From NCBI RefSeq assembly GCF_002005165.1, contig NZ_CP019699.1, positions 2,480,001 to 2,544,000 on the forward strand: a stretch of 64,000 nt of DNA, written 5' to 3'. A program made the translations under genes and the position numbers. The notes below the pieces were generated by a model. It searched no databases. It saw only the letters and a program-made list of their open reading frames with translations, and had not been told where the DNA came from. This DNA comes from Novibacillus thermophilus. GTDB taxonomy: Bacteria > Bacillota > Bacilli > Thermoactinomycetales > Novibacillaceae. Of this stretch, positions 13,764 to 37,725 are shown one piece after another (position 1 is the first letter of the stretch; every line of letters starts with the position of its first letter).

Positions 13764-15327
13764 ATGTCTTTCAATATGTTAATCGTGGATGACGAACCTG
13801 TTATATGTCGTGGCTTAGAAAATACCATTCAGTGGGAACAGCACAATGTCAAAGTTGTGGATACCGCGCATGACGGTGAAGATGCGATCGAAAAAATACA
13901 ACGCCACGCTCATGTTGACATTGTGATCACGGATGTAAAGATGCCAAATGTAGACGGTCTGCAATTGGCCTCTTTCCTCCATGAACGCTACCCTCAGATT
14001 CGCATGATTGTGATCAGCGGATACGATGAGTTTGCATATGCCCAGAAAGCGATCCAACTCGGTGTGAAAGACTATTTGTTAAAACCCGTCAATGTTGAGG
14101 AGCTCGTCCAAAAAGTCCGGGGACTCACGCGTGAAATAGCGGACGAACGGAAATTAAGAGCAGAGTTTCGGGAAACGAGTTTAAAGAACGCGATTTTCCA
14201 ACAAATAGCTGACGTACCGGTACGATGCCCTCATCCGTTTCGCGCATGTGAAGATGTTAAAATTTATCCGTTTATAAGTGTGTTACAGGAATATATGCAG
14301 AAAATGAAGCACTTAAGTGATGACAAGATAAACGTACAAAAGATGCGCTGGAAAAACCTCATCGATACGACCCTGAACCAAAATGGATTTGAATCCGTAT
14401 CCGTTTTTACAGGGGAAAATGTCTTACTTACATGTGTGAAAGTTGAAAACGAAGACCGTTTCCCAAAGAAAATCGTTTCGCTGTTGAAACAAGACTGGTT
14501 GACGTTCATATGGAGTGATGAGGTCATTCACCTCGCCCGCCTTAAGGCAAAAATGACAGAGTTGACAAGGGCGATAAATTATTTGCCTTTAGTAGAGGAC
14601 GGAGAGATTGTTTTATCTAAATTTGAACGTGAACGACGACGTGTACCGACCTATCCTTACGACCTGGAAAAAAAGTTTGTCGATGAATTCTTGCAATTTG
14701 GAAGCGCGGGTTTGCGAGACCTATCGGATGAATTGTTTCGTTACTTCAGGTCACATAAATTTTTTCTGGAAGAGGTTGTTCAAGTATGCAGGGAGATTTT
14801 GATCAAGGTCATCAATCAATACGGGCCTCTGCTCGGGACAATGTGTACCCGTTAGATGTCCAGTACAAGCAGTTTGTGGATGTCCAGTTGTATAATTCTT
14901 ACCGGCTTTTACAAGAATTGTTCGATGACGATGTGATGGCGATTACGAGCAAGCTGGACGAGAAAAAAGAGGATCAAAAGAATTGGATGATTGAAAGGGC
15001 TGAAGCGTATATACAGGAATACTATACATCAAACATTAAAGCGTATGAAGTTGCAGATGTGATCAATGTTTCGCCTAATTACTTCAGTTATTTATTTAAA
15101 CAAAAGACGGGAAAAAAATTTAATGAATATGTCAATCAGCTAAGGGTTGAGGAAGCCAAATCACTCCTCGTCGAAACCCCTTTTAAGGTTAGTGAGATAT
15201 CCGAGCAAGTCGGATTTCAGGAGTATAAGTACTTTGCAGAAGTATTCAAAAGTTTACTGGTATCACGCCCACGGCTTATCGCCATTTGATGTCAAAAAAT
15301 GAACGAGTGAAGCAAGGAGGAACATAA
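13764..15327 (+). pseudogene. YesN-type response regulator (receiver plus AraC HTH), two frameshifts
   Basis: The N-terminal receiver domain (LIVDDEP, phospho-Asp57 in VITDVKMPN) is intact. The first frame stops at 14853-14855 after a frame change near 14835-14837, where one extra G would restore LLGDNVYPLD. The C-terminal AraC-type HTH (YEVADVINVSPNYFSYLFKQ ... VSEISEQVGFQEYKYFAEVF) lies in the next frame. It is shifted again at the A4 run at 15248-15251, where one extra A would give the canonical FKKFTGITPTAYR ending with a stop at 15325-15327. Restored length is about 521 residues. As written, no full-length DNA-binding regulator is made. Confidence 0.88.
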
Positions 15328-20186: not shown

Positions 20187-20605
20187 TTATCTCCATAAGC
20201 CGGCGAGGCGCTTTGTCACCTCTGACGCCAATCGGTAAGTCATCCCCGGAGCGGTCGCTAACTCCGCCCCAGTATCATGACGTCAGGACTGTATCTTTTA
20301 CGAGGTTTTAATCCTATCGCCTCATCAACCGGATAATGCGCGTTGCCGTTTTTGTCATACATTAAGTGGCGTCGGTAGGTCACTGGCCCAAAGAAACAGG
20401 TGAACTGGCGCTGATCACGCCGCTCACTTTTCCAACCGTAATAGGTCTTGTAATACGCCACCAGGGCCTGATCCAGTTGCTCCAAAAACTCCCCCAACTG
20501 ATCCGCAATGATGCCCATCATTTTCACACGTAGGGTTTCCCAAAAGGACAACATGTCTGAAGACTGTTCTAAAATAGATGCGATTTCTGGTATAATTGGT
20601 TTCAA
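20187..20605 (-). mobile_element. Remnant of an ISLre2-like insertion sequence (5' part of transposase)
   Basis: On the minus strand a TTG start behind GGAGAGG opens the N-terminal part of an ISLre2-type transposase (FFGPVTYRRHLMYDKNG ... EAIGLKPRKRYSPDVMIL). The frame is lost near 20270, where one extra base would continue VAELATAPGMTYRLASEVTK, and then stops at 20187. Full-length proteins of the family are several times longer, so most of the element is deleted. I could not identify terminal inverted repeats. It separates the gluconate genes from a truncated abrB-type gene. Confidence 0.75.
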
Positions 20606-21652: not shown

Positions 21653-21673
21653 GACCAAAAAGACCAAAAAGAT
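21653..21673 (+). promoter_or_regulatory. Tandem response-regulator box, copy 1 (acylase promoter)
   Basis: Direct repeat (GACCAAAAA)x2 followed by GAT. Identical 21-base boxes occur at 27694 and 30689. A TATGAT -10 at 21713-21718 and a TTGTAA -35 at 21690-21695, 17 bases apart, follow at the same distance as at the other two copies. The proposed ligand is the DctR-like regulator encoded at 30023 (inference). Confidence 0.75.
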
Positions 21674-21802
21674 TCCTATGATTTATATATTGTAAATAAA
21701 ATTTTATTGTCCTATGATTTGGATATCCAACAAGTCAAAAAATTCTTTTAAATATGTTATGTTTATAGGAATTTTTTAAATGATATACAAGGAGTGAGGT
21801 TA

Positions 21803-24463
21803 TTGAAAAGAAAAGCAATATTGTTGATTCTCGTATGTGTGCTTTTGATTACGCCTACTTTTTATTCAGGTAACGCGGCAGAATCGTCGTTGCACTATAA
21901 AGTCTCTGGACTTGAAAAACCAGCCGAGATTCTTGTTGACCGGTGGGGAATTCCACATATTTACGCCTCTTCTACAGATGATGTTTATTTTGCACAAGGA
22001 TTTAATGTCGCCCGTGATCGTTTATGGCAACTTGATCTATGGCGTAGGAATGGATTGGGAAAGCTCTCGGAAGTCCTTGGCCCAGAATACATAGAACAAG
22101 ACAGAGCGAAACGTTTATTTTTATACCGCGGAGACATGGATAAAGAGTGGGAAGCTTATGGCCCGGATACGGAAAAGATTGTGACATCGTTTGTTAACGG
22201 TATCAACGCCTATATTGACCTGACAGAAGAGGATCCCGATCTGATTCCAGAAGAATTCAAGATTCTTGGCTACAAGCCTTCTAAATGGCAGCCTGAGGAT
22301 GTCGTTCGCATTCGAAGTCATGGTTTGACACGAAATATCACCAATGAAGTAGCTCGAGCTATTACGTTAAGAGAATACGGTAAAGACGTTGAAAACATTC
22401 GTAAAGGCTTAGAGCCAGATTGGGAATTTACTATTCCTGAAGGATTGGATCTTGAAGCCATTTCCGAAGATGTTTTGGCAACTTATCGGTTAGCGACAAA
22501 TGGTGTTTCTTTTGATGGAATTGACAATCAGGTTACAACGGAAAACTTAAATGATCAAATTGAATACGAGTCTAATCTCGGGAGTAACAACTGGGTCATC
22601 AGTCCTGAAAAATCAAAAACGGGTCGACCGATCTTAGCTAATGATCCTCACAGAGCACTAGGCGTACCTTCACTTCGTTATATAGCGCACTTGTCAGCAC
22701 CCGGATTAGACGTTATCGGCGGCGGTGAACCTATCCTGCCAGGCATTTCCATTGGCCACAACGGAACAGTAGCATTCGGGCTCACTATATTTGCGATCGA
22801 CCAGGAAGATCTGTACGTATATGAAACAAATCCAGACAATCCTTCTGAATATCTTTACCAAGGCAAATGGGAAGAAATGACATCTGTAAAGGAAGAAATC
22901 AAGGTTAAAGGTGAGAATCAACAGGAAGCAGAATTAGAATTTACCCGACATGGACCAGTTATATATAAAGATGAAGAAAATAATCGTGCTTTCGCAGTTA
23001 GAGCGGCATGGTTAGAACCGGGAATGGCACCGTACTTGGGAAGTTTGGCTTACATGGGAGCTAAAAGCTGGGATGAGTTCTATGAGGCAATGAACAAATG
23101 GGGATCGCCATCAGAGAACCAAGTATATGCTGATATAAATGGAAACATTGGGTGGAAACCAGGTGGGTTGACACCCGTGCGAGATAATTGGGATGGGTTA
23201 TTGCCAGTACCTGGTGATGGAAGATATGAATGGGACGGCTTCCTCAACCAAGAAAATTTACCCTTCGAATATAATCCCGATCGGGGTTGGATTGGTACAG
23301 CAAATGAAATGAATTTGCCGGATGATTATGATTATGAAAAATATAAACTCGGATTTGAATGGAGTGCGCCATTCCGTTACCAGCGTATTGCGGAAGTAAT
23401 GGAAAACTATGAAAAAATAGGATTGGAAGATTCACAGCGCCTTCAAACGGACTACGTATCAATTCCTGGACAGCGCATCACTAGATTACTAGATGGTCTT
23501 CAGTCCTCTGAGGAAAAAGTAAACCGTGCTTTGACATTGCTACAAAATTGGGATGGTGACTTATCCATTGATTCATCCGCAGGTGCCTTGTTTGAAGTAT
23601 GGTATCAACACCATTTACGCAAGGCAGTTGTGGAAGAAATTATGTCAGAAGAAGCAGCTCATCACGTTGGATCTGGTGACCCTGTTGTTATCTTAAATCT
23701 GTTAGAAAATCCGGATGAACGTTTCGGAGAGAATCCAGAAGAAGTGCGTGATCAAATTCTGTTGTCTAGTCTAGTAGACGCAATCAGCCATGTAGAAGAG
23801 CTTCTCGGATCGCAGATGGATCAATGGCAATGGGGAGATTTGAAGCATGTCTATTTGGAACACCAGTTATCTGATTTAGTTGATGAGGAACAGCGAAAAA
23901 AAATGAATATTGGTCCTCTTCCACGTGGTGGAAGTGGAGACACTGTTGGGAATACGAGTTATAATAGAGGAAATTTCCGACAAACCAGCGGCGCAACCTT
24001 TAGGATGGTTCTGGATGTTGGAAACTGGGACAATTCAGTTGCGATGAACAGCCCTGGTCAATCAGGAGATCCGAACAGCAAACACTACGATGATCTGTTC
24101 CAAAAGTGGGCAAATGATGAGTCAATCCCGTTGTTATATAGCAGAGAAAAGGTTGAGGAAGCAACGGAAAAACGTATTGTTCTATTGCCTAATCTGGAAA
24201 CAAGTGCCGACAGCATACAAACACTTGTTGAGCATTTCGAAGAAGAGGGTGAATTTGCAAACGATGAAGTTTTTCATTCTTTACTTCTTCATTTGAGGGC
24301 AGTGAGTCATTTCGAAAACCTAGGAGCAGCCGAAAAAGTCGTTAAGCATATGGGTGGTTTTAAGGATTTAATCGACTATCAACAAGACAATGGGTTGATT
24401 TCCGAATTTGTGTACAGCGTGCTCATAGCTGAAGCTAATAATTTAATTGAGAAGTGGCAATGA
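21803..24463 (+). CDS. Penicillin acylase family protein (secreted Ntn hydrolase) with FIMAH-like tail
   Basis: About 886 residues. I start it at TTG 21803, nine bases after AAGGAG; a GTG at 21794 overlaps that site. A lysine-rich hydrophobic signal peptide ends near AAESS. The alpha part has VDRWGIPHIYA and AQGFNVARDRLWQLD. Autocleavage is expected before the serine of GSNNWV (about Ser261), the N-terminal nucleophile of the beta chain. The last 85 or so residues form a helical FIMAH-like module also present in the hydrolase at 27793. The family hydrolyses amide bonds of acylated amines such as beta-lactam side chains or acyl-homoserine lactones. The substrate here is unknown. A DctR-type box lies upstream. 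Confidence 0.88.
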   Translation: MKRKAILLILVCVLLITPTFYSGNAAESSLHYKVSGLEKPAEILVDRWGIPHIYASSTDDVYFAQGFNVARDRLWQLDLWRRNGLGKLSEVLGPEYIEQDRAKRLFLYRGDMDKEWEAYGPDTEKIVTSFVNGINAYIDLTEEDPDLIPEEFKILGYKPSKWQPEDVVRIRSHGLTRNITNEVARAITLREYGKDVENIRKGLEPDWEFTIPEGLDLEAISEDVLATYRLATNGVSFDGIDNQVTTENLNDQIEYESNLGSNNWVISPEKSKTGRPILANDPHRALGVPSLRYIAHLSAPGLDVIGGGEPILPGISIGHNGTVAFGLTIFAIDQEDLYVYETNPDNPSEYLYQGKWEEMTSVKEEIKVKGENQQEAELEFTRHGPVIYKDEENNRAFAVRAAWLEPGMAPYLGSLAYMGAKSWDEFYEAMNKWGSPSENQVYADINGNIGWKPGGLTPVRDNWDGLLPVPGDGRYEWDGFLNQENLPFEYNPDRGWIGTANEMNLPDDYDYEKYKLGFEWSAPFRYQRIAEVMENYEKIGLEDSQRLQTDYVSIPGQRITRLLDGLQSSEEKVNRALTLLQNWDGDLSIDSSAGALFEVWYQHHLRKAVVEEIMSEEAAHHVGSGDPVVILNLLENPDERFGENPEEVRDQILLSSLVDAISHVEELLGSQMDQWQWGDLKHVYLEHQLSDLVDEEQRKKMNIGPLPRGGSGDTVGNTSYNRGNFRQTSGATFRMVLDVGNWDNSVAMNSPGQSGDPNSKHYDDLFQKWANDESIPLLYSREKVEEATEKRIVLLPNLETSADSIQTLVEHFEEEGEFANDEVFHSLLLHLRAVSHFENLGAAEKVVKHMGGFKDLIDYQQDNGLISEFVYSVLIAEANNLIEKWQ

Positions 24464-24495
24464 ACTTTAAAGTGGACAACGTAAACGTCTGACGG

Positions 24496-24525
24496 AAGGG
24501 GGAGCAGAGGATCCTGTTCCTCCTT
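24496..24525 (+). terminator. Hairpin between acylase and DASS transporter genes
   Basis: 12-bp stem AAGGGGGAGCAG / CTGTTCCTCCTT with two G-T pairs and a 6-base loop. There is no clean U-tract, so partial termination or mRNA stabilisation is likely, leaving the downstream genes at lower expression. Confidence 0.5.
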
Positions 24526-24571
24526 GTTGTCATTTGTGCGTGATTAAGAATTTTGGGAAATAGGTGTCGAA

Positions 24572-26047
24572 ATGCCGAGAAAAAAAGTTATAAAATCCGA
24601 ACCACAGTACCGATCCGCTAATCTCGAAGGTCTACACAAAGAAAAGCGTCTGAATAGAAAAACAGCATTCGCTTTCTGTGTGGCCGTCTTATTGTTTGGT
24701 ATAGCGGTCGAAGGGTTAGGGGCCGAAGTCCCCTGGGAGGCACGCGCAACCATTGGCATTACGCTCGCAGCCATTGTTTTGTGGGCATCAGAGGTCATTC
24801 CATTTGGACTGACATCGTTGCTCGTTTTAGTAAGTCTAGTGATGACCGGCGCTTGCACTGTGGAAGTTGCTCTAAGCGGGTTTTCCAAAGGAGCTGTCTA
24901 CTTGATTGTAGGCGGGATGATGATGGCACAAGCTGTCAACCACACTGCACTGGGAAAGCGATTGACATATGCGCTTATGGCCCGAACAAAAGGTGACATG
25001 AAGCGTATTTTATGGGCTGTGATACTCGTTCCGCAAATGCTCGCTTTATTTATCCCTGCGACAAGTGTCAGAACGGCGTTACTGCTTCCGCTCGTCTTGT
25101 CTATTGTCAACGTGCTCCACCTGCCCGAACGGTCCGGAGCAAAAAAGCAATTACTCGTCGGTTTGGCTTTCGGGGCGAATGTAAGTGGTACGGCAATACT
25201 GCCAGCCGCCATCGGCAATGTGCTCACGGTAGAGATACTCGATATTTATCTAAAACACAGTATTTCATATATTGACTGGTTTTGGTACACATTCCCCGTC
25301 TGGTTCGCTATGATTCCAACGACCTGGTGGTGTATTCGCAGAGCGTTTCCGGCAGAACGAGAAACTCATCATGCGTTAACTGCGGTCATGCAGCAGAAGT
25401 TGCAGGCATTAGGGCCCCTTACGAGTGAAGAAAAGCGTTGCTTGCTGATCTTGGCTGGAACCGTTTTCTTGTGGATGAGTGCAGAATGGCACGGTTTGGA
25501 TCCTGCCATTCCAGCACTGCTGGCGGTTGTCGCCATGAGCCTTCCCGGTGTCGGCGTCGCAACGTGGAGGGAAGTCGTTCAAGTCGATTACGGTTTGGTA
25601 CTGTTGCTCGGATCAACATTATCCCTCGGCATTGTACTAAATAATTCCGGTGCGATTGACGTGGTTACACAATGGTTGAAGGGAGCTTGGTTTGTTCATC
25701 TGGCGGAGGCGCCTTTTTTATTAATCGTTGTGATGATTGTGATGGCCCATCTTTATCATCTTGTGGTATCCAATATTTCCACTGCCGTGGTCACGTTCCT
25801 CCCCATGGTAATCGGTGTCGCTCTGGAGATGGGGGTTAATCCGGTTGTATTGAGTGTATTGTCGGCGATCACTATTTTGTACGGGTTTCTTCTTGTCGTT
25901 GAAACGCTCCCCACGGTTCTTGTGCACGGAACGGGTGAAATCAATCAACGTGATTTTTGGCGTGCCGGAGTCCCCCTCACTGTCGGGTCGATTATGATAC
26001 TAACATTAGTGGCGGTAACATGGTGGAAATGGATCACTTTTGCATAA
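24572..26047 (+). CDS. DASS family (SLC13-like) anion:Na+ symporter
   Basis: A 491-residue carrier with about 12 hydrophobic segments after a charged N-terminal tail. Characteristic stretches are SEVIPFGLTSLLVLVSLV, MMAQAVNHTALGKR, IPATSVRTALLLPL and the late SNISTAVVTFLPMV, matching the two SNT-like loops of the divalent anion:sodium symporter family. These proteins import di- and tricarboxylates or sulfate. AGGTG precedes the ATG. It sits between the acylase and a CitA-type kinase, suggesting uptake of a carboxylate or a co-sensor role (inference). Confidence 0.85.
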   Translation: MPRKKVIKSEPQYRSANLEGLHKEKRLNRKTAFAFCVAVLLFGIAVEGLGAEVPWEARATIGITLAAIVLWASEVIPFGLTSLLVLVSLVMTGACTVEVALSGFSKGAVYLIVGGMMMAQAVNHTALGKRLTYALMARTKGDMKRILWAVILVPQMLALFIPATSVRTALLLPLVLSIVNVLHLPERSGAKKQLLVGLAFGANVSGTAILPAAIGNVLTVEILDIYLKHSISYIDWFWYTFPVWFAMIPTTWWCIRRAFPAERETHHALTAVMQQKLQALGPLTSEEKRCLLILAGTVFLWMSAEWHGLDPAIPALLAVVAMSLPGVGVATWREVVQVDYGLVLLLGSTLSLGIVLNNSGAIDVVTQWLKGAWFVHLAEAPFLLIVVMIVMAHLYHLVVSNISTAVVTFLPMVIGVALEMGVNPVVLSVLSAITILYGFLLVVETLPTVLVHGTGEINQRDFWRAGVPLTVGSIMILTLVAVTWWKWITFA

Positions 26048-26073
26048 GCGATGAGGTGTGAGGTTTTTCAATA

Positions 26074-27657
26074 ATGAAGCGAAGAATGAAATTGCGGACC
26101 AAAATGCTGCTCCTCTCTTTTATATTGGTCTCTTCTTCGGTCATCGTCAGTGGTTTGTCAATGCTGTACAGCATTTCCTATTCTTTTGAAAAGGAGATTA
26201 GACAGCGTGCGATTGCTATTTCCAGAACGGTTGCCCAGTTAGATGAAATACGGGACTACGTGGGAAAAGAAGGCGGCGCACGGATCATTCAACCGGTGGC
26301 CGAACGAATCCGTTTAGCCACGAATGTTGATTACATCGTCATTTTAGACATGAATCGCATAAGGTATTCCCACCCTTCGGAATCGCGGATCGGGGAGAGG
26401 TTTGAAGGTGGGGACGAGGGTGCCGCATTTTCTGAATTGGAGTATACCTCGAAGGCGAAAGGGACGTTAGGGTACGCAATTCGCGCTTTTGTCCCTATTA
26501 TGGATAGAGAAGGCATTCATCAAGTCGGAGTCGCGGTTGTTGGCATTTTAGCCCCAACATTTGAATCTTATTTGGCTGAGTATCAAAGCAATATGTTGCT
26601 TTCGTTAGTATGGGGGCTATCGATCGGATTAATAGGCTCTTGGATTATCGCCAACAGTGTAAAAAAGCAAACCCATCAGTTAGAACCCTTTGAGATAGGG
26701 CGGTTGTTGGAAGAGCGTTCAGCTGTCATGGAAGCAATGGATATTGGCATCATTTCGATTGATATTAATGGGAAAGTCAACTTCATGAACAGAGTAGCGG
26801 AACAGTATACGAAGGTAGCAACTTTATTTGATGACGCTGAGGATCTCACCTTGAGTCAATTGTTTTCAGGGACGTGGCTGATGGATCTGAACTTTGTCAA
26901 TCAAAAAATTCAAAATAAGCCTATCAGTATCCACGGCACGATGTACTTAATTTCTTCCTATCCTCTTCATGTCCATCAAGATCTCGTCGGATCTGTAGTG
27001 ACGATAAAAAGTCGGTCAGACGCTCACCAATTGGCCGAGGAGTTAACTGGCATTAAAAATTTGGTCGGCGCTTTAAGAGCTCAGAACCACGAGTACATGA
27101 ATAAATTGCATAGTATCGCAGGTTTAATTCAGTTGGATCGGACTGAAGAAGCATTGAATCTGATGATTGACGAAACTTCTCAGGAAGAAAACCTTGTTCA
27201 GTTTCTGAAAGACAACATTGACGATTACGCTGTTTCCGGGTTACTGCTTGGAAAGCGTTCTCGGGCAAGGGAGCTCGGTGTGACTCTGAGGATAGATAGA
27301 AGCTCCTATTTATCCCAAATAGTAGATGGGTTTAGGGCCGGCGATCTTGTCAGTATACTTGGAAATTTAATTGACAATGCCATTGAAGCCTGCCAAGGTC
27401 AGGAAAAACACGTTGTCTGTTGTTTGGTGCAAGGTGATGAACATGGGCTGCGTATTGTCGTTTGTGATACGGGGAAAGGGATGTCACACGACGAACAAAC
27501 AAAGATTTTTGACTATGGCTATAGTTCCAAAGCAGAGGAAGGCCGGGGGATTGGCTTGGCCTTGGTAAAGGAAATTGTAGAGGCTAACCAAGGTTGTATT
27601 CATGTTGAAAGTCAAGTTGGAAGCGGGACAAAGGTTGAAATCACAGTCCATCGTTAG
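26074..27657 (+). CDS. Sensor histidine kinase, CitA/DcuS/DctS-like
   Basis: A 527-residue kinase. An N-terminal helix (residues 10-32) and a second helix near 173-192 flank a PAS-like extracytoplasmic domain of the carboxylate-sensor type (VDYIVILDMNRIRYSHP). A cytoplasmic PAS and a kinase core with NHEYMNKLHSIAGLIQL (His339 likely phosphorylated), an N-box LGNLIDNAIEAC and DTGKGM follow. Such kinases sense external citrate, malate or fumarate. Its natural partner is the CitB-family regulator at 30023; the hydrolase gene at 27793 lies between them, an unusual split. It follows the DASS gene by 26 bases. Confidence 0.9.
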   Translation: MKRRMKLRTKMLLLSFILVSSSVIVSGLSMLYSISYSFEKEIRQRAIAISRTVAQLDEIRDYVGKEGGARIIQPVAERIRLATNVDYIVILDMNRIRYSHPSESRIGERFEGGDEGAAFSELEYTSKAKGTLGYAIRAFVPIMDREGIHQVGVAVVGILAPTFESYLAEYQSNMLLSLVWGLSIGLIGSWIIANSVKKQTHQLEPFEIGRLLEERSAVMEAMDIGIISIDINGKVNFMNRVAEQYTKVATLFDDAEDLTLSQLFSGTWLMDLNFVNQKIQNKPISIHGTMYLISSYPLHVHQDLVGSVVTIKSRSDAHQLAEELTGIKNLVGALRAQNHEYMNKLHSIAGLIQLDRTEEALNLMIDETSQEENLVQFLKDNIDDYAVSGLLLGKRSRARELGVTLRIDRSSYLSQIVDGFRAGDLVSILGNLIDNAIEACQGQEKHVVCCLVQGDEHGLRIVVCDTGKGMSHDEQTKIFDYGYSSKAEEGRGIGLALVKEIVEANQGCIHVESQVGSGTKVEITVHR

Positions 27658-27693
27658 AAATGACGACTCGTCCAGGAAACGATTGTTCCCTAA

Positions 27694-27714
27694 GACCAAA
27701 AAGACCAAAAAGAT
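27694..27714 (+). promoter_or_regulatory. Tandem response-regulator box, copy 2 (CocE-type hydrolase promoter)
   Basis: (GACCAAAAA)x2-GAT, identical to copies 1 and 3. A perfect TATAAT -10 lies at 27753-27758; the -35 position 17 bases before it reads ATGGAA, poor enough to need an activator. The 8 bases CAGTAT..TCGTT after the box are also shared with copy 3. Confidence 0.78.
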
Positions 27715-27792
27715 CAGTATTATCGTTATATGGAAAATTATTGTAAGCGCTTTATAATGACAAGAGACATTGTTTCCCGAGGAGGAGCGGCG

Positions 27793-29778
27793 ATGGGTAG
27801 AAAAAAGTATTTTTCCGCTTTATTGATGTTGTTACTCTTTGTTTCCACCACCTTAGGGCACAGTATGTTCGACAATACGGCGGAAGCATTTGAGGAGGTT
27901 CAAGTTGACGGTCCAAAGGGAGTGGGAACCGAAAACAGAAATTGGGTTACAGAGCCCGAGACACCGCCGACGTCAAGTGAACGCTATCCAGTTACAGTAT
28001 ACGAGGACGTAACCATTCCGATGCGTGACGGTGTCAAATTGAAAGGCCGTTTATTCGTTCCAGACCTTCCGGATGGACCGGGGCCTTGCGTCCTTTATCC
28101 GAACGGTTATGGGCACGGAAGCCCGGATTCAGGAGAAAATAGAATTCCCCGTGATTTGGCAGAACGCGGTTATGCGTCTCTACACGTCAGTATGCGCGGT
28201 TCAGGAACTTCGGAAGGGGAAGGGAACCTTTACAACAAATACGGAGAAGACGGTTACGACCTTGTGGAGTGGATGGCAGACCAACCGTGGTGTAACGGCA
28301 AAGTTGGAACGATCGGATCATCGTTGAGAGGAATTAATCAGTGGTTGATTGCTAAAGAACTTCCGCCAAGTCTAAAGGCGATAAGTCCGATCATAGCCTG
28401 TGGTGATTGCTACCATTACTTATGGTATCCAGGAGGCATGCTACCAGGTCCTGGACGGGTTGCCCGTGGCGAGCCTGAATACCCATCTGCCATACAGCAT
28501 CGCAATTTTGATGACTGGTGGCGTGAACGCTCCACATTGACTGAGGACCTTGAAGCAATAGCTAGCCACGACATTGCCGCCCTGATTTCTGGCGGATGGA
28601 ATGACTACATTTCCCCGGGTAATGTGCATGCGTTCAAGGAATACAGCGCGGCAGGTGGTATAAGTAAGATGATTATGGGTCCGGGGGCCCATGGTTCGGT
28701 GACAGGTTTACTGCCTTATGATTTTGAAACCTACCAGGTACTCTGGTTCGATCGTTATCTAAAAGGGATAGACAACGGGATCGATGAGGAAGATAACGTC
28801 TTAATTTATGTACAGGGTCCGAACCAGTGGAGATTTGAGAAGGCGTGGCCAATTCCCGATACGCGAACAGTCAAAATGTATCTGAGTGAGCAAAAAAGCG
28901 GCTCTATTGAAAGCAAAAACGATGGCTCCTTTAGGTCAATTCCTTCGTGGGAGCGAAGCGAAAGCGCTAACTACGAGTACTCACCTGAATCGGGCCCGTT
29001 TTTACACACGATGCTGGATTCATCCAGCGGCCGGTTAAAGATTGACCAGACGCCCTATGAAGAGCAAACGGTCACATGGACTACATCTCCCCTGCTCGAC
29101 GCTACAGAAGTAACAGGAACGATGACACTAGACATATGGGCTGAGACAAATGCAGAGGACATTGACTTCGTCGTTCAAATTTCTGACGTAGCCCCAGACG
29201 GAACATCCACGGCAGTGACTGCGGGCTACTTGAATGCGCCGCGATCCAAATCGCGTTCTCATCCTCTACCCCTTGTTCCAGGAAAAATTGAGCACTATCA
29301 AATCGAAATCCTGCCAACCTCTTATGTTTTTAAAGAGGGACATCGCATCCGTTTAAGTATTGCAGGTGGAACGAAGGAGCATCCGGAACAAAGGGCACCC
29401 CAAGGCCCCGGTCTGAATCCGAATGAGGCTTCTGTCAAGATTTATCAGGATGAGAATCATCCGTCGAGTTTAGAGATTCCCGTGATTGGCACTGCGGTGC
29501 CACCGTTGGATCCGGGCAGTGCGACGGACATGATTACCGTTGTTGAGCACTTTAAAGAAGAGGGAGAGATCGCAAACGATGCAGCATTTCGGTCATTACA
29601 GACTCATTTGACTGCCGTCGGGCATTATGAAAACAGGGGATTAACGGAAAAAGCTGTCCACCACATGAAAAGCTTTAAGCTGTTGTTGGAGCATCAGAAC
29701 AAAAATGGATGGATTTCCGAAAAGGCTTACAACATACTCAAAAGAGACGCTGATTATTTGATTAAGAAGTGGCAGTAG
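27793..29778 (+). CDS. CocE/NonD-type alpha/beta hydrolase (S15-like), secreted, with FIMAH-like tail
   Basis: About 661 residues from the ATG at 27793, 7 bases after GAGGAGG; an upstream in-frame ATG lies at the promoter and is excluded. A signal peptide with hydrophobic core ALLMLLLFVSTTLG is followed by the hydrolase domain. RDGVKLKGRLF opens it, the nucleophile is Ser177 in GSSLRG, and MGPGAHGS carries the likely catalytic His. A jelly-roll domain (VQISDVAPDGTS ... FKEGHRIRLSIAGG) as in X-Pro dipeptidyl peptidases and cocaine esterase follows. The last 85 residues match the C-terminal FIMAH-like module of the acylase. It cleaves an ester or amide outside the membrane; the substrate is unknown. 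Confidence 0.87.
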   Translation: MGRKKYFSALLMLLLFVSTTLGHSMFDNTAEAFEEVQVDGPKGVGTENRNWVTEPETPPTSSERYPVTVYEDVTIPMRDGVKLKGRLFVPDLPDGPGPCVLYPNGYGHGSPDSGENRIPRDLAERGYASLHVSMRGSGTSEGEGNLYNKYGEDGYDLVEWMADQPWCNGKVGTIGSSLRGINQWLIAKELPPSLKAISPIIACGDCYHYLWYPGGMLPGPGRVARGEPEYPSAIQHRNFDDWWRERSTLTEDLEAIASHDIAALISGGWNDYISPGNVHAFKEYSAAGGISKMIMGPGAHGSVTGLLPYDFETYQVLWFDRYLKGIDNGIDEEDNVLIYVQGPNQWRFEKAWPIPDTRTVKMYLSEQKSGSIESKNDGSFRSIPSWERSESANYEYSPESGPFLHTMLDSSSGRLKIDQTPYEEQTVTWTTSPLLDATEVTGTMTLDIWAETNAEDIDFVVQISDVAPDGTSTAVTAGYLNAPRSKSRSHPLPLVPGKIEHYQIEILPTSYVFKEGHRIRLSIAGGTKEHPEQRAPQGPGLNPNEASVKIYQDENHPSSLEIPVIGTAVPPLDPGSATDMITVVEHFKEEGEIANDAAFRSLQTHLTAVGHYENRGLTEKAVHHMKSFKLLLEHQNKNGWISEKAYNILKRDADYLIKKWQ

Positions 29779-29815
29779 GTTTTAAGACCGTGTACGTGAA
29801 TGTCTTGTATCAAGG

Positions 29816-29845
29816 AAAAGAAGTCCTTCGGGGGCTTCTTTTTTT
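29816..29845 (+). terminator. Rho-independent terminator after the CocE-type hydrolase gene
   Basis: Stem AAAAGAAGTCC / GGGGCTTCTT around a UUCG-type loop followed by T7, 40 bases after the stop codon. Confidence 0.85.
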
Positions 29846-30022
29846 GGCCGCCGTTCCAGCAAAAGGATGCCCCAGGAACTTTGACATCATGCAGTAGCCA
29901 TTTTGGCAATAAGTTGACTGTTAATTTTAAGATTTTTAAGTTAGAATTATAAAAATAATCATCGTTAGTTTTATTAAAAATTTATATTTTTAAACGCCAA
30001 GTTAATTGAAAGGGGTGTTGAT

Positions 30023-30688
30023 ATGATTAAAGTCGTGATGGTTGAGGATGATCCAATGGTATTGGAAGTAAACAAAGGGTTCTTAAAAAAAATCCCTTCT
30101 TTTCATCTCATCGATAGTGTAATGGACGGTCGTAACGCCTTGCAGTCCATAAAGACACACAAGCCAGATCTCGTGTTGCTTGATATGTATTTGCCGGAGA
30201 TATCTGGGTTGGATGTGCTAACGGAAATCAGAACGCACGACATTCCGACAGATGTACTGATGATTACAGCTGCACGGGACGCTAAAACAGTCCACAAAGT
30301 TTTTCGATTAGGGGCTGTGGACTACATCGTTAAGCCTTTTCGATTCGACCGATTTCGGCTCGCTTTGGAAAAATACCAGAAGATGTGGAAGAAATTGATG
30401 GAAGTGAAGACGATCAGTCAGGAAGATATCGACCATTGGATAGAGAGGGATTACGACGGTAGATCCGAATCACTCCCCAAAGGAATTAGCGACATTACGT
30501 TAAAGCAAATCATGATGGCCCTCTTTGAGCAAGATCAACCAGTCACTGCAGAACAACTAGCCAATGACTTGGGAATGGCTAGGGTTACAGTGCGTCGATA
30601 CCTGGAATACTTGGTACAACAGAATAAGATACGCGTTGAAATTGAATACGGGAGTGTCGGGCGGCCCAGACACTATTATTCGATCTGA
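30023..30688 (+). CDS. Response regulator, CitB/DctR family
   Basis: A 221-residue regulator. The receiver domain occupies residues 1-120 with the acidic pocket VEDD (residues 7-10) and phospho-Asp54 in LVLLDMYLP. The C-terminal domain carries an HTH typical of CitT/DcuR/DctR (TAEQLANDLGMARVTVRRYLEYL). AAAGGGG precedes the ATG. It is the natural partner of the CitA-like kinase at 26074 and ends one base before box copy 3. I propose it binds the three identical tandem boxes in this locus (inference from position and family). Confidence 0.9.
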   Translation: MIKVVMVEDDPMVLEVNKGFLKKIPSFHLIDSVMDGRNALQSIKTHKPDLVLLDMYLPEISGLDVLTEIRTHDIPTDVLMITAARDAKTVHKVFRLGAVDYIVKPFRFDRFRLALEKYQKMWKKLMEVKTISQEDIDHWIERDYDGRSESLPKGISDITLKQIMMALFEQDQPVTAEQLANDLGMARVTVRRYLEYLVQQNKIRVEIEYGSVGRPRHYYSI

Positions 30689-30709
30689 GACCAAAAAGAC
30701 CAAAAAGAT
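30689..30709 (+). promoter_or_regulatory. Tandem response-regulator box, copy 3 (TRAP operon promoter)
   Basis: (GACCAAAAA)x2-GAT begins directly after the regulator stop codon. TTGGCT (30726-30731) and TACAAT (30749-30754), 17 bases apart, follow. The box-to--10 distance is 40 bases, against 39 and 40 at the other two copies. Confidence 0.78.
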
Positions 30710-30772
30710 CAGTATCCTCGTTTTATTGGCTAAAAAGTGTAAGCGGTTTACAATTTCATTGTCGTTAAAGGG

Positions 30773-31825
30773 GTGGTGATCATACTCCGGAAAGTTATAC
30801 TCACGACCTGTCCTATAATCATTCTTTTTGTTTCTGTTTCTTGTCAATACGGGACTTATCCTCAAGATCATGAGCAACTGAGTGCAGATGAACGCATCGT
30901 GATTCGTTTTTCTCATGTTGTGGGCGAAGATACTCCGAAGGGTCAGGCCAGTCGTAAGTTTGCCGAATTGGTTGAAAGTCGAACCGACGGTTACGTGGAA
31001 GTTCAAGTCTTCCCCAATAGTTTCCTGTACCGGGACGGCGAAGAATTCGATGCTCTTTTGAAAGGAGATGTTCAAATGATCGCTCCTTCGACATCGAAAG
31101 TAACAAAACTTGTTCCTGAATGGCAAGTCATTGATTTACCTTTTGCTTTTAACAGTGACCAAGAAGTGAATGAATATTTAGAAAGTCCGGCGGGACAAGT
31201 ACTGTGGGATAAATTGAAACGCGAAGGCCTGTACCCACTGGCGTTTTGGAATAATGGCTTTAAGCAGATGACGAACAACCGGAACCCTTTAATCGACCTT
31301 GCCGATTTTAAGAATCTCCGCTTCCGTGTCATGTCGAGTGAAGTGTTAGAAGAACAATTTTCCCTTTTAGGTGCGCAGGCACACGTTGACGCCTTTGATC
31401 AAGTTTACCCGCTCTTGGAAAAAGGAGAAATTGATGCCCAGGAAAATACTTTTTCAAACATTGTCAACAAAAACATTCACACTCAACAAGAGTACATGAC
31501 GATTAGTAATCATGGGTATTTAGGTTACCTCGTCCTTATGAATGAAAAATTTTGGCAAAACCTGTCAGACGAGATTCAGATCGTGTTGTTGGAAAGTATG
31601 CAGGAAGTGACGGAATGGGAAAGAGGGATTGCTGAGGAAATCAACCGCGAAAACAGACAGACGCTTGAACAGTGTGACTGCGTAAACCTTCATGAATTAA
31701 CCCACGAGGAGCGGGTTGTGTGGGAAAGAGCCCTTGAACCGCTGTACGATTCATTTACAGAGCAGTTTGGAGACAAATACATACATTATATTCCAAAATT
31801 TAAGAAAGAAAGGAGTTACAACTGA
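30773..31825 (+). CDS. DctP-type TRAP transporter solute-binding lipoprotein
   Basis: A 350-residue extracytoplasmic receptor of a tripartite ATP-independent periplasmic-type carrier. The signal peptide ends in a lipobox (VSVSC, Cys24). The body has FSHVVGEDTPKGQASRKFAELV at the N-terminus and the conserved NLRFRVMSSEVL segment, with an Arg that usually salt-bridges the substrate carboxylate, then QENTFSNI. Two consecutive GTG codons (30773, 30776) could start it. It binds an organic acid and delivers it to the permease at 33019. It is the first gene after box copy 3. Confidence 0.9.
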   Translation: MVIILRKVILTTCPIIILFVSVSCQYGTYPQDHEQLSADERIVIRFSHVVGEDTPKGQASRKFAELVESRTDGYVEVQVFPNSFLYRDGEEFDALLKGDVQMIAPSTSKVTKLVPEWQVIDLPFAFNSDQEVNEYLESPAGQVLWDKLKREGLYPLAFWNNGFKQMTNNRNPLIDLADFKNLRFRVMSSEVLEEQFSLLGAQAHVDAFDQVYPLLEKGEIDAQENTFSNIVNKNIHTQQEYMTISNHGYLGYLVLMNEKFWQNLSDEIQIVLLESMQEVTEWERGIAEEINRENRQTLEQCDCVNLHELTHEERVVWERALEPLYDSFTEQFGDKYIHYIPKFKKERSYN

Positions 31826-31827
31826 AA

Positions 31828-32913
31828 GTGCAAAAAGTAACGTTGAACATGTACAGACAATGGGACAAGATCTTTTTCGTCGTGTTGTTTGGACTGGCGC
31901 TAGTAGCCCTCGCTGCGTGTGGGAATCAGGCCGGAGATGCATCTAATGAGACTGGGGGTGAGGAAGCTCCTGAAGAAGCTAATGCAGAAGAACGGGATTA
32001 CCCCACCACAGTTACCATAGGCACTGCTTCACAAGGTGGAACTTACTACATTTTCGGTGGTGGGCTGGCTAATTTACTGGAAGAACATCTCGGTGTAACG
32101 TCAAACGTCGAAGTCACTGGAGGTCCGGTGCACAATATGCAATTAATCCAATCTGGTGATCAAGAACTAGGTATGGTGACAACGGGACCGGCATACGAAG
32201 GGGTCACCGGTACCGGGGAATGGACCGGAGGGGAAAAGCTGGATGACGTAAGAATTACGTTTCCGATGTATTCGACCCCCTTCCACTGGTGGGCACTGGC
32301 CGATAGTGGTGTGACAGATCTCTCCGGGATTGAGGGACAACGTGTCGGTGTCGGTCCTGCCGGGGGGACGTCAGGGACCTATTTGCCCATGATCCATGAA
32401 CTTTTAGAATTGAATACAGAAGATGTACAGGCGGGTGCCAGTGATATGGCTTCCCAAATGTTAGATGGTCAGCTTGATTATATCGGGTTCGCTGCCGGGA
32501 TTCCTATCGCAGCAGTGACGGAAGTGGAGGCGCAGCGGGAAATCAATTTATTTGGAGTTGAGGGGGAGCAACGCGACCTTATTTTGGAAGAGTTTCCCTT
32601 CTTCTATGAGTATACGATTCCGGCAGGTACGTACGATTCTTTGGATGATGATTTAGAGACGATCGCGATGTACAACTTTGGTATCGTCCACAAAGATGTG
32701 AATGCCGATTTCGTCTATGATTTGGTCAAAGCTTACCACGAAAACATTGAGCAAATGATCGACACCCATGCGTCTGCTAAAGAAGCTGAAGATCCCGAAG
32801 CGATTTTAAATAACAAAAACCTTCCCATGCACCCAGGAGCAATTCGCTATTACGAGGAAATTGGAATCAAACTACCGGATGAAGTTTATCCACCGGAGTG
32901 GGACGGGAATTAG
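31828..32913 (+). CDS. TAXI family TRAP transporter solute-binding lipoprotein
   Basis: A 361-residue protein with lipobox LAAC (Cys31) and an acidic linker. The TAXI hallmark GTASQGGTYYIFGGGLANLL lies near residues 67-86, and GVGPAGGTSGTYLPMI is also typical. GTG at 31828 follows the DctP stop by 2 bases, with AAGGAG about 12 bases upstream. TAXI receptors form a different fold family from DctP receptors yet serve the same kind of permease. Having one of each in tandem before a single permease gene is unusual. Confidence 0.9.
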   Translation: MQKVTLNMYRQWDKIFFVVLFGLALVALAACGNQAGDASNETGGEEAPEEANAEERDYPTTVTIGTASQGGTYYIFGGGLANLLEEHLGVTSNVEVTGGPVHNMQLIQSGDQELGMVTTGPAYEGVTGTGEWTGGEKLDDVRITFPMYSTPFHWWALADSGVTDLSGIEGQRVGVGPAGGTSGTYLPMIHELLELNTEDVQAGASDMASQMLDGQLDYIGFAAGIPIAAVTEVEAQREINLFGVEGEQRDLILEEFPFFYEYTIPAGTYDSLDDDLETIAMYNFGIVHKDVNADFVYDLVKAYHENIEQMIDTHASAKEAEDPEAILNNKNLPMHPGAIRYYEEIGIKLPDEVYPPEWDGN

Positions 32914-32936
32914 GCCTGTTTTATGGAGAGAGAATC

Positions 32937-32968
32937 ATTCCCTACCTTTTTATAAAAAGGTAGGGAAT
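32937..32968 (+). terminator. Perfect intercistronic hairpin between TAXI receptor and permease genes
   Basis: ATTCCCTACCTTTTTA and its exact complement form a 15-16-bp stem with almost no loop, followed by CCTTTTC. It probably limits read-through so that receptor exceeds permease. Confidence 0.65.
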
Positions 32969-33018
32969 CCTTTTCACCTTACAGGTTGAGGCAGTATTTA
33001 CACAGGAGGTGACCGAAT

Positions 33019-34977
33019 GTGACGGATAAAGGGAAATCGCCAAAAATCGATACATCCGTAGACATTAAATCCTTTTCCAAAACCCGCGATTTAACGGGAT
33101 GGGTTCGACACTTGTTTATGACGGTCGCTGTCGTCGGCGCTCTTTTTCACCTGTACATTTTAAATATTAATCCTATCGACCCGTGGGTATTCAGAAGTAC
33201 ACACCTTGTATTCGGTGCTGTGTTAGGATTTTTAATTTATCCTGGGTGGAGAACAAGATCCTCCAAAATCCATGTTGTGGACTGGATCTTGGTCGTCGTC
33301 ACGATTTATGTTGGTTTCTACATTTTTGTCAACCTCGATCAGCTTTTGTTTCGCTTTGGAGTATCGCCTACTCGTATGGATTTCTACGTCGCGTTGGCCG
33401 GTTTGTTGATCGTCCTTGAACTTACGCGGCGCACGAGTGGTTGGATGCTTCCTCTTTTAGCTTTACTGTTTGTTTTATACGTATTTGTAGGGCCGTATCT
33501 ACCTGGCATTCTCCATCATTCCGGATATTCGGTTGAGCGGTTTGTCACGTACATCTACGGACTGGATGGCGTGTTCGGCGTGACTTTAGATGTATCGTCC
33601 AAGTACATTATTCTCTTCATTATTTTCGGAGCTTTTCTGCAAATGTCAAGGGTGGGGCAATACTTTATTGATGTCGCCTTTGCTGTAGCCGGGGGATTGC
33701 GGGGAGGTCCTGCCAAAGTCGCCGTCGTTTCCTCCGGACTCATGGGAATGATGAACGGAACATCCGCCGGTAATGTAGTGGCGACTGGGTCTCTCACCAT
33801 TCCGTTGATGAAAAAAGTCGGATATCCACCGCGATTCGCAGGGGCGACCGAAGCCACCGCCTCGGCCGGAGGGCAGTTGTTGCCCCCGATCATGGGGGCT
33901 GGCGCCTTCTTAATGGCTGAGATTATTGGCATTCAATACACGGAGGTCATCATAGCGGCAATCATTCCTGCCATTTTATACTTTATTTCCGTTTACTTCA
34001 TGGTCGATCTTGAGGCGATTAAACAGGGAATGAAAGGATTATCCCGTCAAGAGTTGCCACAGCTCAAAGACATGCTGAAAAGCGCCTACCTTTTTCTGCC
34101 GGTCGTTTTACTCATTTACTTGCTGGCGAACGGTTTCTCTGTCATCTTAGCCGGTAGCTTAGGGATTGTGGCGTGTCTTGTCGTCAGCCTGTTTCACCCA
34201 AAAACACGTATGGGTCTGAAACGGATTTTACATGCGTTTGAATTAGGAATGAAGGATTCTGTCCAACTGATTGCGGTTTGTGCATGTGCGGGCATCATTG
34301 TGGGCGTAATTGCGTTGACCGGTGTGGGACTGCGTTTCAGTTCCATGCTGTTGTCCATCGCTGACCACAATTTGCTGATCGCCTTATTGTTCGCAATGGT
34401 GATCTCTATTTTACTCGGGATGGGGATGCCTACAACAGCCGCTTATGCCGTAGCGGCATCAGTCGTGGCGCCGGGGTTAATTCGCATGGGCGTCGAGCCG
34501 TTGTTTGCCCATATGTTTGTCTTTTACTATGCCGTCATCTCGGCCATTACGCCTCCCGTTGCTTTAGCTGCTTATGCAGCAAGCGGTATCGCGGGGACGG
34601 ACCCCATGAAGACTTCCATCCAAGCTTTTAAGCTGGGATTAGCTGCGTTCATTATACCCTTCATGTTCTTCTACAGCCCTCAACTGCTGTTAGAAGGAGG
34701 AGAGTCGGTCGGAGGTATCCTATTTGCTGCCATTACGGCAACCATTGGCGTCTATCTGTTGGCTTGTGCAGTCCAGGCATGGTTCTTCGGCAAGAAAGCC
34801 AGTTGGTATAGTAGACTCTTGTTATTGGCAGCATCGATTATGTTAATGATGGCCGATGTTACTTCTGATTTCATCGCCCTCGGCTTCGTCCTGATCGTCA
34901 TTTTGATTCAAACTGTGACAGCCCGAACGGAGGCGGTCAGTCGAGTGACGGGACAGGAGAAAAAGGTCAAGATGTGA
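33019..34977 (+). CDS. Fused TRAP transporter permease (DctQ-DctM type)
   Basis: A 652-residue integral membrane protein with many hydrophobic helices. The N-terminal third corresponds to the small DctQ subunit. The large DctM part has SSGLMGMMNGTSAGNVVATGSL, AGGQLLPPIMGAGAF and GMGMPTTAAYAVAASVVAPG, the conserved elevator loops. Such fusions normally accompany TAXI receptors. AGGAGGTGA precedes the GTG at 33019. It imports the ligand of the two preceding lipoproteins, using a sodium gradient as known for the family. Confidence 0.92.
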   Translation: MTDKGKSPKIDTSVDIKSFSKTRDLTGWVRHLFMTVAVVGALFHLYILNINPIDPWVFRSTHLVFGAVLGFLIYPGWRTRSSKIHVVDWILVVVTIYVGFYIFVNLDQLLFRFGVSPTRMDFYVALAGLLIVLELTRRTSGWMLPLLALLFVLYVFVGPYLPGILHHSGYSVERFVTYIYGLDGVFGVTLDVSSKYIILFIIFGAFLQMSRVGQYFIDVAFAVAGGLRGGPAKVAVVSSGLMGMMNGTSAGNVVATGSLTIPLMKKVGYPPRFAGATEATASAGGQLLPPIMGAGAFLMAEIIGIQYTEVIIAAIIPAILYFISVYFMVDLEAIKQGMKGLSRQELPQLKDMLKSAYLFLPVVLLIYLLANGFSVILAGSLGIVACLVVSLFHPKTRMGLKRILHAFELGMKDSVQLIAVCACAGIIVGVIALTGVGLRFSSMLLSIADHNLLIALLFAMVISILLGMGMPTTAAYAVAASVVAPGLIRMGVEPLFAHMFVFYYAVISAITPPVALAAYAASGIAGTDPMKTSIQAFKLGLAAFIIPFMFFYSPQLLLEGGESVGGILFAAITATIGVYLLACAVQAWFFGKKASWYSRLLLLAASIMLMMADVTSDFIALGFVLIVILIQTVTARTEAVSRVTGQEKKVKM

Positions 34978-36595: not shown

Positions 36596-36884
36596 GACAG
36601 TACTATACGGATTTACTGGATAGCATTTAGACCTTAAATGTCTCGACTAAGTTTTGCCGACGGACTTGGTATAAAATTCGAACTGGGGAGGTCACCGAAT
36701 GACTTCTATTCTCACATAGGTTGACTTGCATCGTGCCTATTTGAAGGTTTGGATTTATATGGTTAACCTCTGGCAATTTTTGTCGGCACTCGATGTGAAC
36801 ATCGATGGTATAAACTGTCTCAGTTAACGATTGATCATTTTGCTTAATCGTGTTCATAAAGGCTGATTTTTGAGGAGAGCTCAA
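36596..36884. other. Intergenic stretch with a weak minus-strand ORF
   Basis: These 289 bases hold an open frame on the minus strand (36627-36884, up to 85 codons, containing INPNLQIGTMQVNLCENRSH) that I do not recognise. It has no ribosome site before either ATG and overlaps the start of the next gene. It may be a small hypothetical protein or chance. Confidence 0.25.
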
Positions 36885-37725
36885 ATGAAGCGTGTATTAG
36901 TGGCTGGTGCAACGGGTTATTTGGGAAGATACGTTGTTAAGGAACTAAAAAGGCAAGGGTATTATGTCAGGGTACTCGTAAGACACCCAGACAAGTTAAA
37001 CCAAACGGGGGATTTTCTAGCGCCTTCTATCGGTGACGATGTTGATGAAATCGCCGTAGGTGACATTACAAAACCGAATACGTTAAAACACATTTGTGAC
37101 GACATGGATTACGTTTTCTCATCTGTTGGAATCACGAGGAAAAGTCATGGTTTGACCTTTAAAGATGTTGACTATCAAGGGAATGTCAACTTATTAAAGG
37201 AAGCAGAGCACAGTCATGTTGCGACGACGTTTGGGAGGATCCCGGTCCTTTAATTGAAGCTAAAGCGCGTTTTGTTAAGGTTTTAAAAGCATCGCATATC
37301 AGCCATATTGTAATCAGACCGACCGGCTATTTTTCTGACTTAACCCAGTTGTTGACAATGGCCAAAAAAGGTAGAGTTTACCTGATTGGAGACGGTCAAT
37401 CTAGAATGAATCCGATTCACGGCGAAGATTTAGCGCATTTTTGTGTACAGTCCCTCTCGGAAGTAAATCAATCACTTGATGTCGGCGGTCCCGAAACATT
37501 GACATATGAACAATAAAATGGCCTTTGATGTGTTGGATCAGAGAGAACAGATCACACACCTTCCATTCAGTCTATTAAACACCATTTCTTTAGGTCTGAA
37601 ATTGTTCAGTAAACATCATTATGGGGTTTTACGTTTTTTTATGAACGTCATGCCTCACAATGTGATTGCACCAATGTATGGAAAACATAAGTTTAAAGAT
37701 TTTTTCAGGAGAGAGTGTAACGAGA
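36885..37725 (+). pseudogene. NmrA/YwnB-like NAD(P)-binding SDR gene, several lesions
   Basis: Starts at ATG 36885 behind GGAGAG with an intact Rossmann opening (VLVAGATGYLGRYVVKELKRQGY) and proceeds to VNLLKEAEHSHV. A gap of roughly a dozen codons and a frame change near 37215 follow, then another frame gives LIEAKARFVKVLKASHISH, IVIRPTGYFSDLTQ and GRVYLIGDGQSRMNPIHGEDL. A stop at 37514-37516 and a third frame (MAFDVLDQREQITHLP ... MYGKHKFKDFF) finish it. The multiple independent lesions show genuine decay. The family comprises atypical SDRs that bind NAD(P) or act as redox sensors. Confidence 0.8.

Follow-up and report, generated by a model that had tools for sequence, protein, structure and literature searches.

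In Bacillus subtilis, the DctS-DctR-DctB system joins a DcuS-type sensor kinase and a DcuR-type response regulator to the co-receptor DctB (PMC6978683). In Lactobacillus casei, the citrate-family regulator MaeR binds three tandem TTATT(A/T)AA repeats, the first two of which lie 1 bp apart, and acetyl phosphate strengthens this binding (PMC5457438). Streptomyces BldC places a winged helix-turn-helix (HTH) on head-to-tail 9-bp direct repeats, two or four per promoter (PMC5859096). Here we describe a 21-bp box that recurs in front of three transcription units within a 64,000-nt stretch of the Novibacillus thermophilus genome (contig NZ_CP019699.1, positions 2,480,001 to 2,544,000; hereafter the window), which also encodes a DctR-type response regulator (at 30023) and a DctS-type kinase (at 26074). 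The sequence evidence suggests, at a probability of about 0.88, that the three boxes would be the operator of this two-component system, combining an activator site with catabolite repression.

The locus resembles the B. subtilis DctS-DctR-DctB/dctP system in the types of its kinase, regulator and DctB-like component, and in a site resembling the catabolite-responsive element (cre) of CcpA that overlaps the -10 element at two of its three promoters, whereas its transporters are of the TAXI-TRAP and DASS types instead of the SDF type, and it includes two hydrolases in addition. The 9-bp repeat period is shared with MaeR, the closest published architecture that we found, although the repeat letters differ and four units are present here, 9-bp spaced in most sites. 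BldC serves as a working model for the geometry only, with no homology claimed, and differs in being MerR-like and having no receiver domain. When the motif strings were sought in the open literature, none of the matches concerned this regulator family, as judged by titles and the beginnings of abstracts, and we do not claim that a DctR site is unpublished.

Arrays of 9-bp units in register with three promoters

The exact 21-mer GACCAAAAAGACCAAAAAGAT is found three times in the window, at 21653, 27694 and 30689, always on the + strand, and no further match exists there at up to three mismatches (dinucleotide-shuffle expectation, mean 0.01). A scan of the 3.63-Mb genome, also allowing three mismatches, returned these three exact copies and a single 3-mismatch match (G000:C1:1878378), which was set aside for its promoter-model score of -14.4. 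The original prediction, in which the repeat was confined to these three places and each copy preceded a transcription unit (the acylase, the CocE-type hydrolase and the TRAP operon), is borne out: occurrences at unrelated genomic sites are not numerous, and each box lies before a sigma-A-like promoter. In the one other genome searched from the family of the host, no 21-mer match was found at up to one mismatch.

The box proved to be the upstream half of a 36-bp element, in which four 9-bp units run head to tail up to the -35 hexamer; the two units first recognized as a direct repeat thus stand, while the element as a whole has four. Alignment of sites from other genomes gives the layout as four units, -35, a 16-17-bp spacer and -10, with one extra base after unit 2 in two loci (L027 and L140). 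Counting from the box's first base, the -35 starts at +37 and the -10 at +60, which leaves a 17-bp spacer and places the end of the array just before the -35. The window sites, scored with a matrix built without the window, are as follows.

21653..21688, + strand: array 1, GACCAAAAA GACCAAAAA GATTCCTAT GATTTATAT, matrix score 29.8
21690-21695 and 21713-21718, + strand: promoter 1, -35 TTGTAA and -10 TATGAT, spacer 17 bp
27694..27729, + strand: array 2, GACCAAAAA GACCAAAAA GATCAGTAT TATCGTTAT, matrix score 37.2
27731-27736 and 27753-27758, + strand: promoter 2, -35 TGGAAA and -10 TATAAT, spacer 16 bp
30689..30724, + strand: array 3, GACCAAAAA GACCAAAAA GATCAGTAT CCTCGTTTT, matrix score 41.2
30726-30731 and 30749-30754, + strand: promoter 3, -35 TTGGCT and -10 TACAAT, spacer 17 bp

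The next best score anywhere in the window is -5.0. Array 3 begins at the base directly after the stop codon of the regulator gene. At promoters 1, 2 and 3, the -10 starts at +60, +59 and +60, so that box and -10 are 39, 38 and 39 bases apart, and every -35 is weak, matching at 4/6 positions; the predicted -10 elements and poor -35 elements are therefore present, and the predicted distances (39-40 bases, with a 17-base spacer) are right to within a base. Since promoter-like sites show no excess in the region as a whole (24 versus 22.9 in shuffles), the hexamers alone prove nothing, but their fixed position across other genomes supports the promoter assignment. The array thus stands in fixed register with a sigma-A promoter, as proposed for a DctSR operator.

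A less strict pattern, consisting of two degenerate units and a TA, gave 11 matches in the genome at up to two mismatches, against 3 for its reversed control, with 0 mismatches only at the three window sites. The other eight are weaker and include the site of a paralogous regulator (see below) and two matches within one kind of open reading frame (ORF). The latter two, at 1496424 and 3244383, are mutually identical and were set aside as lying inside a 736-aa membrane-protein ORF; the remaining weak matches were set aside by matrix score, except for one at 172225 (see below). The regions around those two matches (L238 and L242; G000:C1:1496424 and 3244383) are oppositely oriented copies in which a 241-aa ORF accompanies the 736-aa one; their translations are identical, and the pair probably reflects duplication of a mobile element.

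The regulator, its relatives and conservation of the array

The two components of the proposed signalling system are encoded as follows.

30023..30688, + strand: DcuR/DpiA-type response regulator with receiver and winged HTH, the proposed binder
26074..27657, + strand: DcuS/MalK-type sensor kinase (sCache_3_2, SPOB_a and HATPase_c), 26 bp after the DASS gene

The regulator matches PF00072 (94.2 bits) and PF20714 (DpiA-like HTH, 36.7 bits), both over the Pfam cut-off, and the sensor domain of the kinase has DcuS as its closest relative among solved structures, with RYSHP kept; the CitT/DctR-type regulator and kinase named in the original prediction are thereby recovered. Escherichia coli DcuR and DpiA are the closest named models for the regulator and its HTH, a comparison drawn through protein models. 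The best NCBIfam scores (DcuR, 166.9/262 bits; DpiA, 137/264 bits) stay below the equivalog cut-offs, which places the protein, on profile scores, in the CitB/DcuR-type family without making it DcuR or DpiA themselves. The phosphoacceptor D54 is invariant in 26 sequences, as are R187, T189 and R191. In the AlphaFold2 model (mean pLDDT, the predicted local distance difference test, 92.9), helices and a two-stranded wing make up a winged HTH, with the recognition helix at about residues 187-199.

In a tree of 112 regulators, the 30023 protein falls in a supported clade of eight, and in all eight an array lies within 78 bp of the regulator gene. The gene order in L008, L130 and L131 is kinase-regulator-array-DctB-TAXI-TRAP, with kinase and DctB each split into two ORFs in L130. 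The window order differs: the kinase is preceded by an array-acylase-DASS unit and separated from the regulator by an array-hydrolase unit.

A gene-first set of 64 loci, chosen solely by homology to the 30023 regulator, comprised L008-L031 (24/80 loci of one search) and 40 loci taken from the upper part of a second list; the other 56 of the 80, matching mainly the receiver domain and largely from other phyla, formed the control set. Left out of the second list were G251, G233, G023 and G187, along with others covered by pattern-first stretches (for example G087, G020, G059, G206, G024, G141, G242, G212, G021, G286, G054, G074, G144, G111, G108 and G082). The degenerate 18-mer representing the first 18 bases was found in 26/64 gene-first loci at up to one mismatch and in 41/64 at up to two, compared with 0/64 and 5/64 for the reversed 18-mer and with 0/56 and 4/56 in the control loci. 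A 68-bp matrix was trained on matches in the same loci, with each locus and its near-identical sites excluded in turn; in this leave-one-out scoring, 37/64 gene-first loci exceeded the highest reversed-matrix score of 17.4. Furthermore, in 23 de-duplicated sites picked within the 64 loci by the first 18 bases only, positions that played no part in the selection are conserved: C at +21 (1.09 bits) and +30 (1.47 bits), TA at +24/25 (1.62 and 1.26 bits), TT at +37/38 (0.89 and 0.88 bits, the next G having only 0.21) and a consensus TATAAT at +60 to +65 (0.88, 0.83, 0.41, 0.76, 0.39 and 0.94 bits).

Searching by pattern first, the degenerate pattern matched at up to one mismatch in 70/299 genomes of the class, many of the matches being GAAC-type and several lying in coding sequence, and the reversed control also gives matches in the 299 genomes. 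Requiring two ACCAAAA cores at a 9-bp distance leaves 13 strict sites outside the host genome; every one adjoins homologues of DctB, histidine kinase, response regulator, SDF or DASS genes, and in 11/13 a regulator gene lies no more than about 6.1 kb away. Ten genes just downstream of an array, hand-picked from 18 loci (the first ORF in each, except in L128, where it is the second, after a 151-aa ORF), encode eight SDF sodium:dicarboxylate symporters, one DctP binding protein and one TctA. Many Bacilli, as well as Desulfovirgula and Desulfocucumis, have the array-and-promoter layout next to genes for DcuR/DctR-type regulators. The association of the array with DctR-type regulators and dicarboxylate transport genes, seen in both the gene-first (37/64) and the pattern-first (13/13) sets, assigns the site to a system of dicarboxylate regulation.

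Two of the window promoters carry cre-like sites.

27742..27755, + strand: cre-like site TGTAAGCGCTTTAT, overlapping the -10 of promoter 2, at +48
30738..30751, + strand: cre-like site TGTAAGCGGTTTAC, overlapping the -10 of promoter 3, at +49

Both match the 12-base pattern TGNAARCGNTWT with 0 mismatches, leaving unmatched the terminal CA of the consensus WTGNNARCGNWWWCAW (PMC3463425), from which known cre boxes such as that of acoR, TGAAAGCGCTTTAT, deviate likewise (PMC3463425); promoter 1 has no cre-like match at up to one mismatch. At this threshold, such sites occur in 15/26 promoters (the 23 de-duplicated sites plus the three of the window) versus 17/1300 shuffled segments, 11 of them at +48 to +51, over the -10, and 4 at +77 to +82. 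The B. subtilis dctP cre TGAAAACGCTATCA, a strong CcpA site at -14 (PMC3463425), recurs in letters and place beside an SDF gene in L169 and L179: the identical 14 letters lie at +51, and the match to an SDF gene starts 107 and 116 bp downstream of the first base of the box, respectively. A start near +72, estimated from the -10, puts the middle of these boxes at about -14. We regard this apparent agreement of a measured dctP cre with the register of the array as the closest approach to experimental support that was found.

Genes of the three units

The units downstream of the arrays contain the following features.

21794..24463, + strand: N-terminal nucleophile (Ntn) acylase of the Penicil_amidase family with a C-terminal FIMAH domain, first gene after array 1
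24496-24525: hairpin with a weak T-tail, between the acylase and DASS genes
24572..26047, + strand: DASS-family sodium:anion symporter, possibly read from promoter 1
27793..29778, + strand: CocE/NonD-family hydrolase with a FIMAH domain, from an inferred ATG at 27793 with GAGGAGG upstream
29813..29845, + strand: terminator-like hairpin in the hydrolase-regulator gap, -16.7 kcal/mol, z -1.94
30773..31825, + strand: DctP-family solute-binding protein (DctB-like), first gene after array 3
31828..32913, + strand: TAXI-family TRAP solute-binding protein
33019..34977, + strand: fused TRAP transporter permease

The closest solved structure to the acylase is the D-succinylase of Cupriavidus sp. P4-10-C (7eby; 863.7 bits over residues 3-774 of the 864 searched), from which it differs by a FIMAH domain outside the matched part. 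D-succinylase has been used on N-succinyl amino acids (PMC7431475), and by this relation the acylase is D-succinylase-like and may hydrolyse N-succinyl-D-amino acids. A TTG a few codons further in is an alternative start for the acylase. For the hydrolase, the ORF start listed at 27730 precedes the -10, which makes ATG 27793 the probable start codon. Both enzymes are probably exported, to judge by eye from their export-signal-like N-termini, and by homology they may have an acid-releasing role. At the thresholds used (E <= 1e-150 for the acylase; E <= 1e-100 for the hydrolase), homologues were found in 2 and 4 other genomes of the 299, respectively. Of 200 shuffles, 13 fold as well as the hairpin at 29813..29845, which is absent from the regional listing that gave the hairpin at 24496-24525. 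The DctP-type protein may be a DctB-like sensor partner.

Several further observations were made along the window. The two hydrolases (21794-24463 and 27793-29778) are unrelated and share the C-terminal FIMAH domain (PF22888), and a DctP-type and a TAXI-type binding protein both precede one fused TRAP permease (30773-34977). At 13764-15289, a response regulator with an AraC-type HTH is present as two overlapping ORFs (receiver, 13764-14855; HTH, 14786-15289) in a frameshift-like arrangement; at 20258-20605 on the minus strand lies a UPF0236-type fragment covering 81/400 profile positions, probably what is left of a mobile element; and a short NAD(P)-binding/epimerase-like ORF at 36870-37253 covers only the N-terminal part of its families.

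The proposed operator model and its alternatives

The proposal that the boxes are activator sites, already made in the original prediction, gains support from the spacing of box, -35 and -10 across genera and from the way the array tracks DcuR/DctR-type regulators and dicarboxylate transporters. From the tandem 9-bp precedents of MaeR and BldC, we infer that phosphorylated 30023 regulator would bind the four units as an oligomer, under control of the DcuS/DctS-type kinase 26074 and probably also of the DctB-like protein 30773. As the array, spanning about -72 to -37, abuts a weak -35, the bound regulator would activate sigma-A polymerase, the oligomer touching the polymerase at that hexamer. 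CcpA would repress promoters 2 and 3 through the cre over the -10 when a better carbon source is present. The putative regulon would comprise acylase-(DASS-kinase), the CocE-type hydrolase and DctB-TAXI-TRAP: the exported hydrolases might free succinate-like acids from conjugates, the two-component system would sense these acids, and the DASS and TRAP transporters would import them.

Several observations weigh against this model. The matrix is negative in 27/64 gene-first loci, among them L028-L031 (a Negativicutes bin, a Sporomusaceae bin, Lucifera and Sporomusa) and L180 and L184, which have [ST]RVS-type recognition helices; 16 of the 27 carry the ARVT recognition helix of the window regulator, so that the presence of the regulator gives no guarantee of a recognizable array in the stretch examined. 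Some negative loci show a shifted or weaker array (L027, L160, L162 and L188), and in others the array may lie beyond the 8-20 kb examined. The 13/13 association of the strict sites is a raw count, although dicarboxylate sensor and transport genes are few per genome. Within the host genome, an AT-rich match to the looser pattern at 172225 scores 17.7, slightly above the matrix threshold. At promoter 1, units 3 and 4 of the array are poorer and a cre is lacking, and the hairpin at 24496-24525 could separate the DASS and kinase genes from promoter 1. Finally, the six homologues of the acylase and hydrolase elsewhere have no array in up to 1.5 kb per side, so that the evidence for the membership of these two enzymes in the regulon comes entirely from this genome.

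This absence, together with the position of the array just after the regulator gene in seven same-clade relatives (L008, L009, L130, L131, L150, L151 and L152), would also fit an arrangement in which only site 3 works and sites 1 and 2 are carried-along copies with little regulatory effect. We consider this improbable: the three 21-mers are identical while their flanks differ, sites 2 and 3 agree at 33/36 positions in the array versus 15/60 just upstream, and sites 1 and 2 both keep their spacing to the -10.

Somewhat less probable still is that the arrays are bound mainly by the other CitB-family regulator of the genome, or by both. A second CitB-family kinase/regulator pair (L190:6718-7560; G000:C1:2933717 onward) is followed by TctC/B/A-like genes, assigned by eye from translations. 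Its regulator shares 33% identity with the 30023 protein and is the only other gene found in the genome with a DpiA-like HTH; a related, weaker array, GCACAAAATGAACAAAAT, overlaps its own stop codon and is followed by the cre-like sequence TGTTAACGCTTACA. However, this site scores only 4.0, below the threshold, and has A at base 3, and the seven relatives keep the box beside the orthologue of 30023. Moreover, both regulators of the genome fit a split seen among best arrays at most 300 bp from a regulator gene: with Ala before the recognition helix, one or both of the first two units carry C at base 3 (17/17), and with Ser both carry A there (10/10). At all distances, C in at least one unit accompanies 48/56 Ala regulators and 2/12 Ser/Thr regulators, with A in both units for eight Ala regulators. 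These 68/112 regulators, which bore both traits, mix homology-found with pattern-found loci, and the latter favour arrays resembling those of the window. As the association amounts on the tree to only 2 independent changes (median sign-test p 0.5, not significant), we treat this residue-base code as a lead only.

It is very unlikely that the box represents a mobile repeat, an RNA element or an A-tract of the UP-element type. Although a series of A-tracts every 9 bp just ahead of a -35 is similar in composition to UP elements, the phased and unselected C at +21 and +30 is not needed by A-tracts, the box lies upstream of the transcription start implied by the -10, only three copies exist, with unrelated flanks, and the box is associated with one regulator family.

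Returning to the operator of the 30023/26074 system, one may ask whether it exemplifies a general grammar for Gram-positive dicarboxylate response regulators, in which four 9-bp units stacked against the -35 would hold a winged-HTH oligomer, Ala or Ser at residue 186 would set C or A at base 3, and CcpA would compete at the -10, the whole having been copied here to two hydrolases as a scavenging regulon; this wider idea is tentative and, on balance, doubtful. What is most unusual about the system is that a D-succinylase-like acylase and a CocE-type hydrolase have been recruited to it locally. For this regulator family, the MaeR site was the only comparable one found in the literature consulted, and a readable operator for such a common two-component family would allow regulons to be read from sequence in many Bacilli. 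By linking the acylase and the CocE-type hydrolase with dicarboxylate sensing, the proposed operator suggests a natural role and a candidate substrate class for these enzymes.

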